DNA of 64,000 bases from Alphaproteobacteria bacterium. GTDB taxonomy: Bacteria > Pseudomonadota > Alphaproteobacteria > Ferrovibrionales > Ferrovibrionaceae. Positions 10,928 to 18,585 of this stretch are shown here, in pieces. The notes under the pieces were generated by a model. It searched no databases and had not been told where the DNA came from. It saw nothing but the letters and a program-made list of their open reading frames with translations. The stretch's first letter is position 1, and each line of letters starts with the position of its first letter. The position numbers were made by a program, and so were the translations under genes. The stretch spans positions 434,001 to 498,000 of the forward strand of contig JAFKFH010000003.1 in the NCBI GenBank assembly GCA_017307375.1, given 5' to 3'.

Positions 10928-11629
10928 GTGAGCGCCACTATTGCCCTGGTCGACGACGATCGCAACATCCTGACCTCGGTGTCGATCGCCCTGGAAGCCG
11001 AGGGTTTCAAGGTCCGGACCTATAACGACGGCGCCGACGCGTTGAAGGGCCTGGCCGCCCAGCCGGCCGACCTGGTCGTGCTCGACATCAAGATGCCGCG
11101 GCTGGACGGTATGGAGACGCTGCAGCGCCTGCGCCGCGGCTCGAACGTGCCGGTGATCTTCCTGACCTCCAAGGACGACGAGATCGACGAGGCGCTGGGC
11201 CTGAAAATGGGCGCCGACGACTACATCACCAAGCCGTTCTCCCAGCGGCTGCTGATCGAGCGGATCCGCGCCGTGCTGCGCCGGGCAGAGGCGAGCCGCC
11301 AGGGCGACACGCCGGAGGCGGCCGAGCGGATGATGCTGCGCGGCGACCTCAGCCTCGACCCCGCCCGCCACTGGTGCTCGTGGAAGGGCCATCCGATCAC
11401 CCTGACAGTGACCGAGTTCCTGCTGCTGGAAGCCCTCGCCCAGCGCCCCGGCCATGTGAAGAGCCGCGACCAGCTGATGGACGCGGCCTATGACGACAAC
11501 ATCTATGTCGACGACCGCACGATCGACAGCCACATCAAGCGGCTGCGCAAGAAGTTCAAGGCGGTCGACGACGATTTCGACGCGATCGAGACCCTCTACG
11601 GCGTCGGTTACCGCTACAAGGGCGAATGA
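10928..11629 (+). CDS. chvI: response regulator ChvI (OmpR family)
   Basis: This is a transcription factor of 233 residues. The receiver domain (1-120) has acidic residues in VDDDRN, phospho-acceptor Asp in [13 protein letters not shown], Thr in [11 protein letters not shown], and Lys in DDYITKPFS. The C-terminal winged helix ends [17 protein letters not shown] and [10 protein letters not shown]. The sequence [24 protein letters not shown] is typical of the alphaproteobacterial ChvI group, which controls envelope and acid-stress responses. The start is a GTG at 10928 after AGAAGGA. It lies 18 bp upstream of chvG. Confidence 0.92.
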
Positions 11630-11647
11630 CCGCGCGGCGCTGATCCG

Positions 11648-13258
11648 TTGACCTCCCCTCCCCTGCGGCGCCGGCGCCGGCTGCGGCTGTTCTCGCCGCT
11701 GACCGTCCGGATTCTCGCGATCAACCTGCTGGCGCCGGTGCTGCTGGTGGCGGGGGTGCTTTATCTCGACCAGTATCGGACCGGGCTGATCGACGCCCAG
11801 ATCGACGCGCTGTTCATCCAGGGCGACCTGATGGCCGGCGCGCTGGCCGAGGCCGCCGTGGTGCCCGGCCAGTCCGGGCCGCGCCTCGACGACGACATCG
11901 CCCGCCAGATCGTGCGCCGGCTGGGCACGGCGTCGGAAACCCGGGTCCGGCTGTTCGACCGGTCGGGCGGCATGGTCGCCGACAGCCGGCTGCTGATCGC
12001 GACCAACCGCGACGTCGTCTATCGCGCGCTGCCGCCGCCCGAGCAGCCGGGGCCGCTGACCCGCGCCTGGCGCTGGACCGGACAGGCGATGGAATCGCTG
12101 TTCTCCTCGCCGTCCGAACTGCCACCCTACGAGGAAGTGCCGCTGCCGCGCGCCGAGACCTATGACGAAGTGCTGGACGCGCTGGCCGGCGATACCGCGT
12201 CGTCGCTGCGCGATGCCGGCGACGGGCGCATCATCATCTCGGTGGCAGTGCCGGTGCAAGGCCTGCGGCGTGTCGTCGGCGGGCTGCTGCTCGACACCGA
12301 TTCGACCGAGATCGAGGCCCGGGTGCGATCGGAACGGCTCAACATCCTGATCCTGTTCACCCTCACCTTCGTCGTCACCACCGCGTTGTCGCTGTTCCTG
12401 GCCTCGACCATCGCCCGGCCGGTGCGGCTGCTGGCCGCCGCCGCCGAGCGCGTCGCCGGCTCGACCGAGCGGCAGGAGCAGATCCCGGACTTCACCAGCC
12501 GTCGCGACGAGATCGGCGACCTGTCCGAGGCGCTGTCGGAAATGACCCGCACGCTGTACGCCCGGCTCGACGCGATCGAGAGCTTCGCCGCCGACGTCTC
12601 GCACGAGATCAAGAACCCGCTGACCTCGATCCGCTCGGCCATCGAGACGATGGAACGGACCCAGGACCCGGAAAAACAGGCCCGGCTGTTCGACATCATC
12701 AAGCAGGATGTCGGGCGGCTGAACCGGCTGATCTCGGACATTTCCGACGCCTCGCGCCTCGATGCCGAACTCTCCCGCGTCAAGGCGGAGCCGGTCGACC
12801 TGTCGCTACTGCTGTCGGCCGCCGTCCAGCCCTATCACGAAGCGGCCAACCCGAACGGTCCGGTCGTCGAGCTGCATCTGCCGGAAACCGACCCGCTGAT
12901 CGTCAGGGGGCTGGAGGGGCGGCTGGGCCAGGTGGTGCGCAACCTGCTGGCCAACGCCGTCTCGTTCAGCCCGCCTGCCGGCCGCATCATCATCACGGCC
13001 TGGCGCGAGACCGGGCGGGTCATCGTCACCGTCGAGGACGAGGGTCCCGGCATCCCGCCGGACAAGTTCGAGGCGATCTTCGACCGCTTCTATTCCGAAC
13101 GGCCGGCGGGCGAGGCCTTCGGCACCCATTCCGGGCTGGGCCTGTCGATCTCGCGCCAGATCGTCGAGCGGCTGGGTGGCAGCCTGACCGCCGAAAACCG
13201 CCTGGACGAGGATGGCGACATCGACGGCGCCCGCTTCGTGCTGCGCCTGCCGGGATAG
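11648..13258 (+). CDS. chvG: sensor histidine kinase ChvG
   Basis: This inner-membrane kinase (536 residues) is the partner of ChvI. TM1 is near residues 20-40 and is followed by a periplasmic sensor of about 190 residues. TM2 is near 235-255 and leads into a HAMP domain (ASTIARPVRLLAAAAERVAG). The H-box is ADVSHEIKNPLTSIRS, the N-box VRNLLANAVSFSP, and the G-boxes EDEGPGIPP and HSGLGLSIS. The start is TTG at 11648, since no ATG lies near TM1. ChvGI followed by hprK is a conserved order in Rhizobiales and Rhodospirillales. Confidence 0.92.
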   Translation: MTSPPLRRRRRLRLFSPLTVRILAINLLAPVLLVAGVLYLDQYRTGLIDAQIDALFIQGDLMAGALAEAAVVPGQSGPRLDDDIARQIVRRLGTASETRVRLFDRSGGMVADSRLLIATNRDVVYRALPPPEQPGPLTRAWRWTGQAMESLFSSPSELPPYEEVPLPRAETYDEVLDALAGDTASSLRDAGDGRIIISVAVPVQGLRRVVGGLLLDTDSTEIEARVRSERLNILILFTLTFVVTTALSLFLASTIARPVRLLAAAAERVAGSTERQEQIPDFTSRRDEIGDLSEALSEMTRTLYARLDAIESFAADVSHEIKNPLTSIRSAIETMERTQDPEKQARLFDIIKQDVGRLNRLISDISDASRLDAELSRVKAEPVDLSLLLSAAVQPYHEAANPNGPVVELHLPETDPLIVRGLEGRLGQVVRNLLANAVSFSPPAGRIIITAWRETGRVIVTVEDEGPGIPPDKFEAIFDRFYSERPAGEAFGTHSGLGLSISRQIVERLGGSLTAENRLDEDGDIDGARFVLRLPG

Positions 13259-13542
13259 GGGCTGATAACGGCCCGGTGATCGGCCTTGTCCGCGCGGCGC
13301 CTGACCCCATATGCCCACATGTTGGACGCCCGGATTTGGAATAACCGGGGCGGGGCATCGAACCCGGTGCCGTCGCGCCGGGTCCCCGCAGGCCGCCGCC
13401 GGCCTCGACGGGAAACAGTCGACGATGATGAAATTGATGCGACGGGCCCGATTTCGGGCCTGCACAACCGTGTGGGGTCGACCATTGACACCCGGGCCGG
13501 GGCAACGCAGTGTGTCGCGCCATGGTGGGTGAGAGGGGCAGC

Positions 13543-14013
13543 GTGCACGCGACCTGCGTGGCGAGCGAGGGGCTCGGTTTGCTGCTGAGAGGACCGTCCG
13601 GTGCGGGTAAGTCGGATCTGGCGTTGCGTCTGATCGACGGCGGAGCCGAATTGGTCGCCGACGATCAAGTCATGTTGGAACGCCGCGGCGACCAGGTCGT
13701 CGCCAGCGCGCCTTCGGCATTGCTGGGGCTGATCGAAATGCGTGGCTTCGGGCCGGTGCTCATCCCCTGCCTGCCCGAGGTGGCGCTGGGGCTGGTCGTC
13801 GATCTCGTCGACCGCCCGGCGGTCGAGCGGCTGCCCGCGCCTGCCCGCATCCGGCTTTGCGGTGTTGCCCTGCCCCATCTGCGCCTGCATGCCTTCGACG
13901 ATGCCACCCCGGCCAAGCTGCGCCTTTGCGCCCGGCTGGTCCGGGACGGCCGGCTGGCGCCGGTCGCGGCCGTGCATGGCCCGGCCATCGGCCAGGTTTC
14001 CGGTCGGTCATGA
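13543..14013 (+). CDS. hprK: HPr kinase/phosphorylase, short alphaproteobacterial form
   Basis: This is a cytoplasmic kinase that phosphorylates a Ser of HPr. It has 156 residues and corresponds only to the C-terminal catalytic domain of Firmicute HprK. The P-loop is GPSGAGKSDLALRLID, and the stretch GAELVADDQVMLE follows. I take GTG 13543, which is preceded by GAGAGGGG at 13531-13538. An ATG at 13522 and a GTG at 13510 are also in frame but lack a ribosome binding site. A perfect TTGACA at 13485-13490 may be the -35 of its promoter, but the matching -10 is poor. The stop overlaps the ATG of rapZ (ATGA). Confidence 0.9.
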   Translation: MHATCVASEGLGLLLRGPSGAGKSDLALRLIDGGAELVADDQVMLERRGDQVVASAPSALLGLIEMRGFGPVLIPCLPEVALGLVVDLVDRPAVERLPAPARIRLCGVALPHLRLHAFDDATPAKLRLCARLVRDGRLAPVAAVHGPAIGQVSGRS

Positions 14014-14906
14014 CCTTGTCGATCACCCGTCTCGTCTTCGTCACCGGCCTTTCGGGTGCCGGCCGGTCGTCGGCCCTGAAGGTGCTGGAAGACCTCGGCT
14101 ACGAGGCGATCGACAATCTGCCGCTGTTCCTGTTGCGCGGCCTCGCCGACGATGCCGGGCCGGAAGAGGGCCTGGAGCGTCGCGCCGGCACCCGGGCGCT
14201 GGCGATCGGCATCGACACGCGCAGCCGCGGCTTCACGGCCGACGGCTTCATCGAGGTGCTGGCCCGGTTTCGCCAGCATCGCGGCTTCAGCGTCTCGCTT
14301 CTCTATCTGGAGGCCGACGACACGGTGCTGCGCACGCGGTTCAGTGCGACGCGCCGCCGCCATCCGCTGGCGGCCGACCGCACGGTCGAGGACGGCATCG
14401 CCATCGAACGCCAGATTATGGCGCCGATCCGCGCCGCTGCCGACCAGGTGCTCGACACCTCGATCCTGTCGCTGCCCGAATTCCGCCGGGTCATCACGGC
14501 GTCCCACGACCTCGAACGCGGCCCGGGCCTCGGCCTCAGCGTCGTGTCGTTTTCCTATCGCCAGGGCTTGCCGCGCGAAGCCGACCTCGTCTTCGACGTC
14601 CGCTTCCTCGACAATCCCTTCTACAAGCCCGGCTTGAAGGCAAAGACCGGCGATGATCCGGAGGTCGGCGCGTTCATTGCCGCCGATCCTGCCTGGCCAC
14701 CGTTCTTTGCCGCCTTCTCGGATCTTATTCTCAGCCTGATCCCGGCCTATGGCCGCGAGGGCAAGTCCTATCTCACCATAGCCGTCGGATGCACCGGCGG
14801 CCGCCACCGCTCGGTCTATACCGCCGAGCGCCTGGTCGAGCGGCTGGCCGCCGCCGGCCATCGCGTCAGCCTGCATCATCGCGATCGCGATCATGGCGGG
14901 GAGTGA
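14010..14906 (+). CDS. rapZ: RNase adapter protein RapZ (YvcJ family)
   Basis: This nucleotide-binding protein has 298 residues. The P-loop is GLSGAGRSSALKVLEDLGY, and EAIDNLPLFLL follows. The C-terminal motif YLTIAVGCTGGRHRSVY belongs to the ligand-binding domain that senses GlcN6P in E. coli RapZ. In enteric bacteria it directs RNase E to the GlmZ sRNA. The alphaproteobacterial role is less clear, and the coupling to hprK suggests it belongs with PTS signalling. The true ATG is 14010, overlapping the hprK stop by 4 bp. Confidence 0.92.
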   Translation: MTLSITRLVFVTGLSGAGRSSALKVLEDLGYEAIDNLPLFLLRGLADDAGPEEGLERRAGTRALAIGIDTRSRGFTADGFIEVLARFRQHRGFSVSLLYLEADDTVLRTRFSATRRRHPLAADRTVEDGIAIERQIMAPIRAAADQVLDTSILSLPEFRRVITASHDLERGPGLGLSVVSFSYRQGLPREADLVFDVRFLDNPFYKPGLKAKTGDDPEVGAFIAADPAWPPFFAAFSDLILSLIPAYGREGKSYLTIAVGCTGGRHRSVYTAERLVERLAAAGHRVSLHHRDRDHGGE

Positions 14907-14939
14907 CGCGACGTGGCGCGATGAGCGAATGAGGAACGG

Positions 14940-15344
14940 ATGATTGGCCTTGTACTGGTCACCCACGGGCGGCTCGCTGCCGAATTCATCGCCGCGACCG
15001 AACACGTCGTCGGCAAGCAGCCCGACATGCGCGCGGTCTGCATCGGCCCGGACGACGACATGGAAATGCGGCGGGCGGACATCCTGGCCGCCGTTGCTGC
15101 GGTCGATTCGGGCGAAGGGGTCATCGTGCTGACCGACATGTTCGGGGGCACGCCCTCCAATCTTGCCATCTCGATCATGGACCAGGGCAAGATCGAGGTG
15201 ATTGCCGGCATCAACCTGCCGATGCTGATCAAGCTTGCCTCGGTGCGGACCAAGGCCGACCTGCACGCTTCGGTGATCGCGGCGCAGGAGGCGGGGCGCA
15301 AGTACATCAACGTCGCCTCCAAGCTGCTGGCGTCGAACGCGTGA
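14940..15344 (+). CDS. PTS EIIA component, mannose/fructose family
   Basis: This protein has 134 residues with the EIIA-Man fold. The phosphorylatable His lies in LVLVTHGRLAAEF near residue 10, and the later motif VIVLTDMFGGTPSN is diagnostic. It receives phosphate from HPr. No EIIB, IIC or IID partner follows, so it is probably a regulatory EIIA (as in PTS-Ntr-like relays) rather than part of a sugar importer. HPr lies 16 bp downstream. Confidence 0.92.
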   Translation: MIGLVLVTHGRLAAEFIAATEHVVGKQPDMRAVCIGPDDDMEMRRADILAAVAAVDSGEGVIVLTDMFGGTPSNLAISIMDQGKIEVIAGINLPMLIKLASVRTKADLHASVIAAQEAGRKYINVASKLLASNA

Positions 15345-15360
15345 GAGGGCGGACGCCGAG

Positions 15361-15639
15361 ATGAGCGACCCGATTTCCCGCACCGTCACCATCGTCAACC
15401 AGCGCGGGCTGCATGCCCGCGCCGCGTCGAAGTTCGCGACCGCCTCCGGCCAGTTCAAATCCGAGGTCACGGTCGAGAAGGATGGTCAGACCGTCACCGG
15501 CCTGTCGATCATGGGGCTGATGATGCTGGCCGCCGGCATCGGTTCGGAGATCACGATCCACGTGCGCGGCGAGGATGCGCGGGAAGCGATCGAATCGCTG
15601 ACGGCCCTGGTGGAAAGCCGATTCGGCGAGAACGAATAA
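15361..15639 (+). CDS. ptsH: phosphocarrier protein HPr
   Basis: This phosphocarrier has 92 residues. The active-site His lies in NQRGLHARAASKF near residue 20. The regulatory Ser lies in TVTGLSIMGLMMLAA, which is the target of the HprK encoded 1.3 kb upstream. Having both sites means it can be phosphorylated by EI and by HprK. EI (ptsP or ptsI) is not in the window. YciI follows 16 bp downstream. Confidence 0.95.
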   Translation: MSDPISRTVTIVNQRGLHARAASKFATASGQFKSEVTVEKDGQTVTGLSIMGLMMLAAGIGSEITIHVRGEDAREAIESLTALVESRFGENE

Positions 15640-15655
15640 TCTTCAGGAGAACGAC

Positions 15656-15943
15656 ATGCAGCAGTTCCAGATCCTGGCATGGGACGGCACCGATGCCGAG
15701 GCGCCGGCCCGCCGCCAGGCGGTGCGCGACGCCCATCTCGAACGCGCCCGCGGCGCCAAGGCCGCCGGCCAGATCATCGTCGGCGGCCCGATCCTGAATG
15801 CCGAGGGCGGCATGATCGGCTCGACCATGATGGTGGCGATGGAAGACCGCGCCGCCCTCGACCGATGGATCGCCGAGGATCCCTACACCCGCGGCAATGT
15901 CTGGCAGCGTTTCGACATCTGGCCGATCCGCGTCGCGGTCTAG
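15656..15943 (+). CDS. YciI family protein
   Basis: This is a small cytoplasmic protein of 95 residues with the YciI ferredoxin-like fold. RRQAVRDAHLERARGAKAAGQI holds the conserved His and Asp-rich region. GGPILNAEGGMIGSTMMVAMEDRAALDRWIAEDPY matches the family core. The molecular role of YciI proteins is not settled; some are dioxygenase-like or degradative. AGGAGAA precedes the ATG at 15656. It is the last gene before a strong terminator at 15976, so it may be co-transcribed with the EIIA and HPr genes. Confidence 0.88.
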   Translation: MQQFQILAWDGTDAEAPARRQAVRDAHLERARGAKAAGQIIVGGPILNAEGGMIGSTMMVAMEDRAALDRWIAEDPYTRGNVWQRFDIWPIRVAV

Positions 15944-16003: not shown

Positions 16004-16669
16004 TGCCGGCCGTGTAATGCCGCAGACGACGCTGCTGTGCCGTCGCCGACCGTGACCAATCGATGACGTCCGATGACTGTCCGCGCGTGTGTTCGGACGG
16101 GCGCGGCTCGACCATCCCGGGCCCTCTGAAGGTCACCGGCATGGCTTGACCGGGGCGGGATGCGAGAGTCCTGCCGCTGCTATTGCAGGGGTGTCGTTGA
16201 ATCCATTTGAGTCTTCACCGATCACGACAGTGTTTAGGCTTTTTTAATGATGATCGTCTCAGGATTACGTCAAATCCGCGCGAAATAATTAGCTTCCGCG
16301 CCGCCCGCGAGGACTCTGTGGCTCCCAGGTTACAGGGCCGTGAAAGAGTCTTCGCGTTCTGGATTCTTCCCCGTTGCGAGTCCGAAACGAGTCCGCTTAT
16401 GCTCGGGTCCTTCGTTGATCACGGGGGCCGTCGAGGCCCTTATCACACAAGGCGAACGGTTTTGGGCGGGTTCCTGGCGGGGGCCCGGGCAGAGGGTTCG
16501 CGTTGTCTTTTTTGTAGGGATGCGGCCGCTGCCCGGCGGGGGCAAGCCGCATTCGGCGTCGTAACGAGCGGGGGCAGTCAGTGTCGGGCGTAGCCTGCAT
16601 AGGTCGGGTCGAAGTGTTGCGAGCAGAGTTTGCTGATGCAGGGTCGCGCGTACTGGGAGGGACCAAGGT
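16004..16669. other. gene-free region upstream of the rhodanese-dnaA pair
   Basis: I find no convincing gene in these 0.66 kb. Short open frames are present but have no recognisable motif or ribosome binding site. The stretch 16200-16300 is clearly richer in A+T than its surroundings and includes a T-run at 16243-16248. Seven GANTC sites lie between 16166 and 16393. Another T-run at 16507-16512 follows a 6-bp pairing of GCGAAC with GTTCGC. No canonical DnaA box (TTATNCACA) is present. The region probably holds the promoter of the rhodanese-dnaA unit, and may hold a small RNA. Confidence 0.6.
16166..16393. promoter_or_regulatory. cluster of seven GANTC (CcrM-type) sites upstream of dnaA
   Basis: GANTC occurs at 16166, 16209, 16312, 16346, 16362, 16378 and 16389 (first base of each). 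That is seven sites in 228 bp, where roughly one per 350 bp is expected by chance at about 69% GC. GANTC is the methylation target of the alphaproteobacterial cell-cycle methyltransferase CcrM, and methylation state controls dnaA transcription in Caulobacter. Function here is inferred from position. Confidence 0.5.
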
Positions 16670-17116
16670 ATGACGATGGCGAAACCGGGTGAGGCCGTTG
16701 CCGGCTATGCGGGCGACGTGACCCCTGAGGCTGCCTGGGAAGCGTTGCGCGCGGAGGCGAAGGCGGTCCTGGTGGACGTGCGGTCCGATGCGGAATGGAG
16801 TTTTGTCGGCCTGCCCGACCTGTCGTCGCTGGGCAAGGACGTGGTGCGCGCCGCCTGGGCGACGTTCCCCGGCATGAAGCCGAATCCCGACTTCGCGGCG
16901 ACGGTGGCCGCGCAGGGCGTGAGCCCCGATTCGGCGATTTATTTCCTGTGCCGTTCCGGCGCCCGTTCGGCTTCGGCTGCCCGGGCGATGACGGCGCTGG
17001 GCTATGCCCGCTGCTACAACATCCTGGGCGGATTCGAAGGCGATCTCGATTCGCAGCGGCATCGCGGCCAGGTCAACGGCTGGAAGCTTGCGGGTCTGCC
17101 GTGGGCGCAGTCGTGA
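16670..17116 (+). CDS. rhodanese-like domain protein
   Basis: This protein has 148 residues and a single rhodanese domain. VLVDVRSDAEW is near residue 35, and the active-site loop CRSGARSASAARAM has its Cys near residue 92. NILGGFEGDLD follows. It may act as a sulfurtransferase. GGGAGGGACCAAGG lies before the ATG at 16670. It ends 14 bp before the chosen dnaA start, so it is almost certainly on the dnaA transcript. Confidence 0.9.
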   Translation: MTMAKPGEAVAGYAGDVTPEAAWEALRAEAKAVLVDVRSDAEWSFVGLPDLSSLGKDVVRAAWATFPGMKPNPDFAATVAAQGVSPDSAIYFLCRSGARSASAARAMTALGYARCYNILGGFEGDLDSQRHRGQVNGWKLAGLPWAQS

Positions 17117-17130
17117 CCGTGGGGGCGATG

Positions 17131-18585
17131 ATGAGCGAAACGCTGCGCCCGGACGGCATCGACGAACAATGGGTTCAGGTGCGCACGCGCCTGCGCCAGG
17201 AAGTCGGCGACGCGGCGTTCAACTCGTGGCTGAAGCCGCTCGGTCTCGTCGGCATCGCCGACTCGGCGGTGACCCTCAGCGCGCCGACGCGCTTCATGCG
17301 TGACTGGGTGCAGAGCCATTATCTCGATCGCATCCGCGAGTTGTGGAAGGTCGAGCGCCCCGGTGTGCGCGCCGTCTCGCTGCAGGTGAAGGCGGCGATC
17401 CGCAAGACCGGTGTGGCGCGCGGCGACGCCCTGCCGGCGCCCGAGCCGATGGCCGGCGCCCTGCCCGGCCCCGGTGCCGCCAGCCCGGCATCGCGGCCCG
17501 TCGTCGTTGCCTCGTCGCAGCGCGGCGACGTCCGGCCGGAGGAACCGACCGAGCGCCAGCTTTCCGCCCCGCTCGACCCGCGCTTCACCTTCGACAGCTT
17601 CGTCGTCGGCAAGTCGAACGAATTCGCCCATGCCGCGGCGCGCCGCGTCGCCGAATCGGAGACGGTCGCCTTCAACCCGCTGTTTCTTTACGGCGGGGTC
17701 GGGCTGGGCAAGACCCATCTGATGCATGCGATCGGGTGGCATATCCGCCAGCGTTTTCCGAACCGCAAGGTGATCTACCTGTCGGCGGAGAAGTTCCTGT
17801 ATGAATTCGTCCGTGCGGTCCGTTTCCAGGACACCATGGCGTTCAAGGAAACCTTCCGCTCGGTCGACGTGCTGATGATCGACGACATCCAGTTCATCGC
17901 CGGCAAGAACAATACGCAGGAAGAATTCTTCCATACCTTCAACGCGCTGTGCGACCGGCACCGCCAGATCATCATCTCGGGCGACCGGTCGCCGTCCGAC
18001 CTCGACGGCATCGAGGAACGGATCCGCTCGCGACTGGGCTGGGGCCTCGTGGCCGACGTCCAGCCGACCGATTACGAGCTGCGGCTGGCGATCCTGCAGG
18101 CCAAGGCCGAACGGGCGGGCTGGCGGAACCTGGCGCCGAAGGTGCTGGAATTCCTCGCCCATCGCATCACTTCAAATGTGCGCGAACTCGAAGGGGCGCT
18201 GAACCGGCTGGTCGCCTACGCCAACCTCGTCGGCCGGCCGATCACGCTCGAGACCGCCCAGGAAGTGCTGCAGGACCTGCTGCGCGCCAACGACCGCCGG
18301 GTCACCATCGAGGAGATCCAGAAGAAGGTGGCCGAGCACTACAACATCAAGTTCATGGACATGACCTCGGCCCGCCGTGCCCGGGTCGTGGCCCGGCCGC
18401 GCCAGGTGGCGATGTACCTCGCCAAGCAGCTGACCTCGCGCTCGTTGCCCGAGATCGGGCGCAAGTTCGGGGGCCGCGACCACACCACGGTCATGCACGC
18501 GGTCAAGAAGATCGAGCAGCTCCGCTCGACCGACTCGGCCTTCGCCGAGGATATCGACCTGCTGAAGCGGATGCTCGAAGCCTGA
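17131..18585 (+). CDS. dnaA: chromosomal replication initiator protein DnaA
   Basis: This is the initiator ATPase that binds DnaA boxes and opens oriC, 484 residues. Domain I (1-75) includes [12 protein letters not shown]. Domain II is a Pro/Ala-rich linker (about 90-145). The AAA+ core has Walker [16 protein letters not shown] near residue 188, Walker [10 protein letters not shown] near 248, and sensor segments. Domain IV carries the DnaA signature [16 protein letters not shown] near residue 450. The ATG at 17131 has GGGGG at 17121-17125. An ATG at 17128, and a GTG at 17113 that would overlap the rhodanese stop, are also in frame. Confidence 0.96.

Follow-up and report, generated by a model that had tools for sequence, protein, structure and literature searches.

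A dense GANTC cluster at the predicted promoter of a rhodanese-dnaA unit in a Ferrovibrionaceae bacterium

E. coli has GATC sites clustered at both oriC and dnaA (the Dam/SeqA system). In Caulobacter crescentus, GANTC, the target of CcrM, occurs in the promoters of several cell-cycle genes, dnaA included (PMC2217572), and dnaA is apparently activated by full methylation (PMC2217572, PMC3973325). CcrM effects on dnaA and multiple GANTC sites at the Caulobacter origin are already on record (PMC3973325, PMC2217572). In the same species, activation at 40-60 min of the cycle is seen for start sites whose GANTC lies between -10 and -35, whereas those with GANTC outside this interval are at their lowest in these minutes; the ctrA P1 promoter is switched on by hemimethylation (PMC4287350). 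A survey of GANTC upstream of alphaproteobacterial cell-cycle genes gave 0.4-1.5 sites per promoter on average (PMC2877005).

The rhodanese-dnaA unit described here lies in a window of 64,000 nucleotides on contig C16 of a Ferrovibrionaceae genome. Upstream of the unit are eight GANTC sites in 228 bp, at 16166, 16199, 16209, 16312, 16346, 16362, 16378 and 16389. The original prediction had listed seven; all seven are where it placed them, but the count is eight, a GAATC at 16199-16203 having been overlooked. We consider that the cluster is probably a CcrM-methylated control region and the promoter of the rhodanese-dnaA transcription unit. The principle is a known one, dnaA being under CcrM control in Caulobacter; what is new is the arrangement, a variant of it. 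The features of the locus are collected in Table 1.

Table 1. Features at and around the GANTC cluster (positions in the window)
Feature	Position	Strand	Basis
HPr gene, upstream of cluster	15361-15639		
YciI-domain gene, upstream of cluster	15656-15943		
Terminator-like hairpin, 10-bp stem AACGGCCCCG/CGGGGCCGTT, GAAA loop	15976-15999	+	Read directly
GANTC cluster, eight CcrM target sites	16166-16393	.	Read directly; density statistics
A+T-rich patch between cluster halves, GC 0.38 in 60-bp windows	16200-16289	.	Composition
Proposed promoter: -35 TTGCGA (16374-16379), 18-bp spacer, -10 TATGCT (16398-16403)	16374-16403	+	Motif; relatives
Predicted to be mostly 5' leader, proposed -10 to rhodanese start	16404-16669	+	Position
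Rhodanese-domain gene, 148 aa, first of unit	16670-17116	+	PF00581, E 8.7e-11
dnaA, chromosomal replication initiator, 484 aa from ATG at 17131	17131-18585	+	PF11638, PF00308, PF08299; TIGR00362

The DnaA protein scores 577.5 bits against TIGR00362 (cut-off 343.9). A rhodanese gene stands directly before dnaA in all 15 other loci examined from the family (f1; its other genomes number 17, among which G006 lacked a match and G002 yielded no locus) and upstream of dnaA in 10 of the 80 named loci. The cluster had been described as gene-free and flanked by A+T-rich DNA, and both descriptions appear to be right. A 128-aa ORF does run across it, with flat codon-position GC (0.62/0.59/0.58, compared with 0.68/0.56/0.81 for the rhodanese gene and 0.67/0.44/0.89 for dnaA), on which ground a coding reading was rejected. 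The A+T-rich patch is possibly a regulator-binding stretch. A known RNA element in the leader was likewise rejected, there being no Rfam match at the gathering threshold between 16404 and 16669. The hairpin is placed after the HPr and YciI genes; a terminator scan did not list it among its sites. The upstream row of genes (window 10928-15943) encodes a response regulator, a sensor kinase, HPr kinase, RapZ, EIIA-man, HPr and a YciI protein.

How unusual is the cluster? The roughly ten-fold excess over chance that had been claimed was confirmed, with 8 sites against 0.84 expected from local base composition. Relative to the genome the excess is about 29-fold because the sampled genome carries just 1.19 GANTC per kb (2837 sites in 2.38 Mb of 7.54 Mb; 5.4 kb of the sample read as N, and 878,000 of the 878,576 bases of C16 are included). 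The cluster is the single densest 228-bp GANTC cluster in these 2.38 Mb, the runners-up having seven sites (C16:366333 and C16:299), six (C16:420739) and, in three clusters, five. When the 726-bp intergenic region was resampled by Markov chains trained on that region itself, GANTC sites included, at least eight GANTC arose in 1 of 5000 first-order trials and in 0 of 5000 second-order ones. The centre base is G or C in six of the eight sites, compared with 22% in the genome sample (p 0.002), and among the leading entries of the k-mer list for the intergenic region no 8-mer is repeated except GAGTCTTC, which occurs twice. Four further GANTC sites lie within 171 bp inside the rhodanese gene (window 16882-17052), extending the site-rich zone downstream. 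In the window as a whole GANTC is under-represented (80 sites vs 286 in dinucleotide shuffles), as reported for CcrM genomes (PMC3973325).

Might the cluster be functionless, reflecting no more than the usual surplus of GANTC between genes in CcrM genomes? Such an excess has been reported for the class (PMC3973325), and C16 has 1.61 GANTC per kb of intergenic DNA vs 1.05 per kb elsewhere, according to crude gene calls that misplace the dnaA start and stretch hemE across most of the oriC gap. (The oriC cluster discussed below is absent from the intergenic list because of this stretching.) From these C16 counts and the 2.38-Mb scan, however, unrelated intergenic DNA is not equally dense, contrary to a possibility that the original prediction had raised against itself. 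Moreover, composition-calibrated rates give 0.75 GANTC expected at the cluster (P for at least eight, 1.3e-6), scan simulations with these rates reached eight in 0 of 500 runs and seven in 2, and a GANTC at the -35 recurs by position in relatives. We therefore regard a functionless excess as very improbable.

The 3' end of the cluster is best read as the predicted promoter of the rhodanese-dnaA unit. The GAGTC at 16378 overlaps the -35 hexamer and its adenine is the last hexamer base, so that a direct effect of methylation on the polymerase would be allowed. The GAGTC at 16389, 11 bp downstream of 16378, lies in the spacer; the two GANTC offsets in the motif are 4 and 15. A link between the cluster and the rhodanese-dnaA unit had been proposed, and it gains substance from the placing of these last two sites within a predicted promoter of a conserved type. 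At its threshold a generic sigma-70 scan called no promoter, and so not the proposed one either.

Comparison with relatives revealed a recurrent motif upstream of dnaA, in which TAGCAT or TAGAGT comes after TTGCGASTC at the distance expected of a promoter. Counts were made on 108 of 110 dnaA loci, L083 (74 bp upstream) and L065 (none upstream) having been dropped. Of the 108, 22 (17 of them named, and counting the window's own locus) have TTGCGANTC upstream of dnaA in sense orientation, compared with 3 that have it in antisense; its rate there is 32-fold higher than elsewhere in these loci. When TAGNNT at the distance of a promoter is also required, 12 loci remain, all named, with none in antisense, a 156-fold excess; the spacer is 17 bp in 12/12 of these closest matches vs 18 bp in the window. 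On 878 kb of C16, both strands, TTGCGANTC occurs three times, once at the dnaA cluster. A looser scan gave promoter-like hits with GANTC in 20/53 cases in sense vs 1/19 on the reverse strand. In ten loci with the 17-bp spacer (L003, L005, L006, L009, L012, L013, L017, L020, L022 and L023) the -10 is TAGAGT followed by C, so that a GANTC overlaps it; both -35 and -10 are overlapped in four loci (L009, L012, L017 and L023). The same-family locus L084 (G001) has the identical two offsets, 4 and 15, with a -10 that the stricter scan did not accept. An alignment of 12 of the 16 family loci has GANTC at the -35 position in 10 rows (two with gaps nearby), the rows without it being L086 and L089. On this sequence comparison the cluster sites outside the promoter core look lineage-specific.

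GANTC upstream of dnaA was also compared over wider sets of loci. The palindrome test used the 80 named loci less three with <700 bp upstream and one of intermediate GC. In the 64 loci with GC >0.45, GANTC upstream of dnaA stands at 1.27 observed/expected, vs 0.52 in the rest of the loci, and seven other palindromes of the same composition at 0.45-0.96; at least four GANTC within 228 bp occur in 15 of the 64, and other palindromes reach this in 0-5 loci. In 12 low-GC, SAR11-like loci the value for GANTC is 0.27, i.e. there is no enrichment. A class-wide set of 60 genomes was hand-picked, among the matches listed, from 281 with a DnaA match (42 with dnaA and ppsR on one contig and 18 others; genomes in which dnaA begins a contig were left out). 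Among these listed matches the GANTC ratio is 1.10 vs 0.53-0.92 for other palindromes, at least one GANTC is upstream of dnaA in 57/60, at least four lie within 228 bp in 9/60, with none above six, and TTGCGANTC is present in 8/60. GANTC is the sole palindrome of the eight above expectation both in the 64 named loci and in the class-wide set. GANTC near dnaA is therefore common, a dense cluster is not, and TTGCGANTC is confined to some lineages. Named and unnamed loci partly overlap (e.g. L004/L102 and L026/L105). Within the family, rows of genus g4 have none to three GANTC per 700 bp, and in L268 and L269 (G003 and G007) dnaA has just 1-2 GANTC upstream and is separated from the ppsR locus by 1.2-1.4 Mb, measured in contig coordinates.

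It had also been suggested that the cluster is part of the origin. The Caulobacter origin is flanked by hemE and a ppsR/RP001 homologue (ppsR being the PEP-synthase regulator gene). An origin at the cluster would suit the adjoining A+T-rich patch, the nearby dnaA gene, the high GANTC density (as at origins) and a coarse cumulative GC-skew minimum of C16 at ~480-500 kb, nearer to the window than to the hemE-ppsR gap. The third-position GC-skew minimum of C16 is elsewhere, at 822 kb, and skew therefore decides nothing on the place of the origin; the GC-skew check called for in the original prediction was run, and is weak, confirming neither the dnaA cluster nor the hemE-ppsR gap. Gene context and DnaA boxes argue against an origin at the cluster. 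The identities of hemE and ppsR were confirmed at the flanks of C16:366.3-366.7 kb, not at the dnaA cluster, parB lies at C16:350 kb, 16 kb from this gap (a second, weaker parB is on C31), and the gap is kept in 28 relatives. Upstream of the rhodanese-dnaA unit there is no DnaA-box-like site within two mismatches of the consensus: a count allowing up to two mismatches to TTATCCACA gives 0 sites in the rhodanese-upstream gap vs 8 in that between hemE and ppsR, and the 400-bp stretches of C16 that come next have 3. At one mismatch, 5 of the 25 sites in 878 kb are in the hemE-ppsR gap and no 400-bp stretch outside it has more than one. A 14-variant DnaA-box list was drawn up after the gap had been seen and holds its forms; the plain-consensus count agrees with it. 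By gene context and DnaA boxes the hemE-ppsR gap is the presumed chromosomal oriC, and the dnaA promoter is therefore ~84 kb from it. The cluster is probably not the origin, and that it forms any part of oriC is extremely unlikely.

The presumed oriC (L130:6292-6701, or G000:C16:366292-366701) is itself rich in GANTC, with 8 sites, 7 of them in 228 bp. Within the 2.38 Mb only the dnaA region is denser in GANTC, and one other cluster equals it; C16 has no other DnaA-box cluster. Three of its GANTC sites abut CTGTGG/CCACAG of DnaA-box type, and it has no CtrA box, even with one mismatch; the dnaA upstream gap has two CtrA-like matches with one mismatch and none exact. Pooled over the hemE-ppsR gaps of 28 relatives, GANTC is found 86 times vs 49.7 expected, a ratio of 1.73 (flanks 0.43; other palindromes in the gap 0.26-0.97). 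L177, whose contig ends before hemE, was dropped from this tally, and the genome's own locus, L172, was not counted among the relatives. CtrA boxes do not replace GANTC at oriC: no relation was found in 29 genomes, own included.

These observations bring to mind the E. coli system: one protein that reads hemimethylation might bind the GANTC clusters at dnaA and oriC and sequester both. The density ranking, the abutting sites, the lack of CtrA boxes and the excess at oriC in relatives are all consistent with this, as is an older modelling paper in which Caulobacter starts a new round of replication only once its origin carries full methylation (PMC2217572). However, no SeqA homologue was found in the genome (of 14 controls, E. 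coli alone matched), the abutting arrangement is present in 2/28 relatives and the gap is free of GANTC in 3/28, and GANTC numbers at oriC and dnaA do not co-vary (n=25 genomes, rho 0.11). Nor is GANTC number related to dnaA-oriC distance (n=42 genomes among the matches listed, rho 0.14, p 0.37; the distance in L289 was computed with the contig as circular), and the idea that it rises when dnaA is near oriC was rejected. Finally, contrary to PMC2217572, a Caulobacter delta-ccrM strain keeps normal replication control (PMC3973325). The missing co-variation and distance relation, together with this normal replication, make a Dam/SeqA-like system less likely, and we consider it quite unlikely. 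A CcrM counterpart of Dam/SeqA in this lineage, also unlikely, would work without CtrA boxes at the presumed oriC: paired GANTC clusters, that at oriC interleaved with DnaA boxes and that at dnaA inside the promoter, would enforce once-per-cycle replication, and their reader would be either a factor that binds hemimethylated DNA or RNA polymerase and DnaA themselves.

What could methylate and read the sites? The original prediction presupposed a CcrM homologue, and one is encoded at C1:74.8 kb, a 371-aa frame that has N6_N4_Mtase and RAMA domains, matches the CcrM of PDB 6pbd over its residues 16-366 (E 1e-165) and is flanked by ORFs that we take, by eye, to be mutY and rnhB. Its score against the NCBIfam CcrM model, 636 bits, is below that model's own cut-off of 830. 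GcrA is encoded at C11:55.4 kb (PDB GcrA 7ye1, E 3e-28; NCBIfam GcrA model 118.6 bits, below its own cut-off of 280), and there is a second, weaker match at C38; two control genomes matched in the GcrA-family search, that of Caulobacter and, which was not expected, that of Sulfolobus. One of the eight cluster sites, 16209, fits the GcrA consensus given in the literature, YGAKTCK (PMC7987155); neither promoter-core site does, both being CGAGTCC and missing it at the last base. A Brevundimonas study, in the part available, describes a slight preference for a preceding C and otherwise no extended one, and C precedes GANTC at both core sites. Since only one site in eight fits the consensus, direct sensing by the polymerase or another reader is as likely as GcrA.

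The genome also has five matches to MucR-type proteins, and in Caulobacter MucR binds at least some unmethylated GANTC (PMC7987155). A regulator of the MucR/Ros type might accordingly bind the A+T-rich patch and shield nearby GANTC from CcrM, giving a hypomethylated switch. But nothing ties the cluster sites to MucR here, and the available text of PMC7987155 names no MucR consensus; the chance that this is how the locus works seems to us very slender.

The preferred reading is therefore a promoter under CcrM control, and dnaA transcription is likely to depend on GANTC methylation. With eight sites, two of them within the likely promoter, how active dnaA is probably depends on how recently the DNA was replicated. 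Like the original prediction, we infer, from the analogy with Caulobacter, that the rhodanese-dnaA unit would be under replication-timed control, and likewise the promoter activity, the methylation, the reader and the sign of the methylation effect. The GANTC adenines would be methylated by CcrM late in the cell cycle. Because one site is over the -35 and one in the spacer, methylation state should alter the binding of RNA polymerase or, alternatively, of a methylation-reading cofactor such as GcrA. As dnaA is ~84 kb from the presumed oriC, the region should become hemimethylated soon after replication starts, and would stay so until CcrM acts again. The sign reported for Caulobacter dnaA seems the more likely one here, full methylation being permissive and hemimethylation lowering new DnaA synthesis till the next cycle. 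That said, the start-site data in PMC4287350 mean that the spacer site could bring activation, not repression, after fork passage. The extra sites upstream would probably strengthen or buffer the methylation switch.

Other dense clusters in the sample also deserve mention. Five GANTC in ~150 bp (L164:3408-3559, on G000:C9) fall in the 3' part of a frame for a plasmid-type replication initiator (RPA, PF10134); a ParA-like gene follows closely and three GTGCCATCRGGAACC units are alongside, which makes this a third replication-control locus among the densest GANTC clusters. Seven in ~180 bp (L112:299-479, or G000:C16:299-479) are upstream of an M23 peptidase gene (ShyC/MepM-like), possibly a cell-wall gene timed to the cell cycle. 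Six in ~190 bp (G000:C16:420739-420927) lie beside a regulator named by eye as ArsR-like, amid repeats of the CGGACTTTTGTAGC type.

In the literature within reach, which takes in few of the subscription journals, and in the excerpts seen, we found no description of a CcrM site overlapping the dnaA -35 or of paired clusters. The motif that puts a CcrM site over the -35 is also present in loci bearing the names Magnetospirillum, Azospirillum and Nitrospirillum, and in others. Initiation has two genetic determinants, and each of them, dnaA as well as the presumed oriC, is marked by one of the densest GANTC clusters; the locus lets one ask whether bacteria other than Caulobacter use CcrM in controlling replication. 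Can methylation act on RNA polymerase directly? Two GANTC sites in a 30-bp promoter offer an exact, mutable target for this question.

The arrangement shares features with several known systems. As in E. coli, methylation sites are clustered at the initiator gene and at the (here presumed) origin; the sites and enzyme differ, being GANTC and CcrM rather than GATC and Dam, and E. coli has the SeqA for which no homologue was found here. At Agrobacterium repABC-Ch2/ori2, GANTC sites lie in the initiator-operon promoter and over the origin, and methylation timing has been proposed (PMC11514494), but that is a secondary origin of RepC type with three sites per region. The Caulobacter promoters ctrA P1 and podJ P2, which are linked to GcrA and CcrM, have GANTC near or between -35 and -10 (PMC4287350), and GcrA is present here too; unlike them, this promoter has core sites, CGAGTCC, that depart from YGAKTCK at the last base, and ctrA P1 and podJ P2 switch on in S phase. 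A further likeness is to Caulobacter dnaA. Here a rhodanese gene leads the unit, DnaA boxes such as those of the Caulobacter dnaA promoter (PMC2217572) are absent, and there are eight sites in 228 bp, one of them over the predicted -35. CcrM control does not require such DnaA boxes. Both are CcrM genomes with GANTC in the dnaA promoter, a predicted one in our case, and the same logic of full methylation versus hemimethylation would be expected in both (PMC2217572, PMC3973325).
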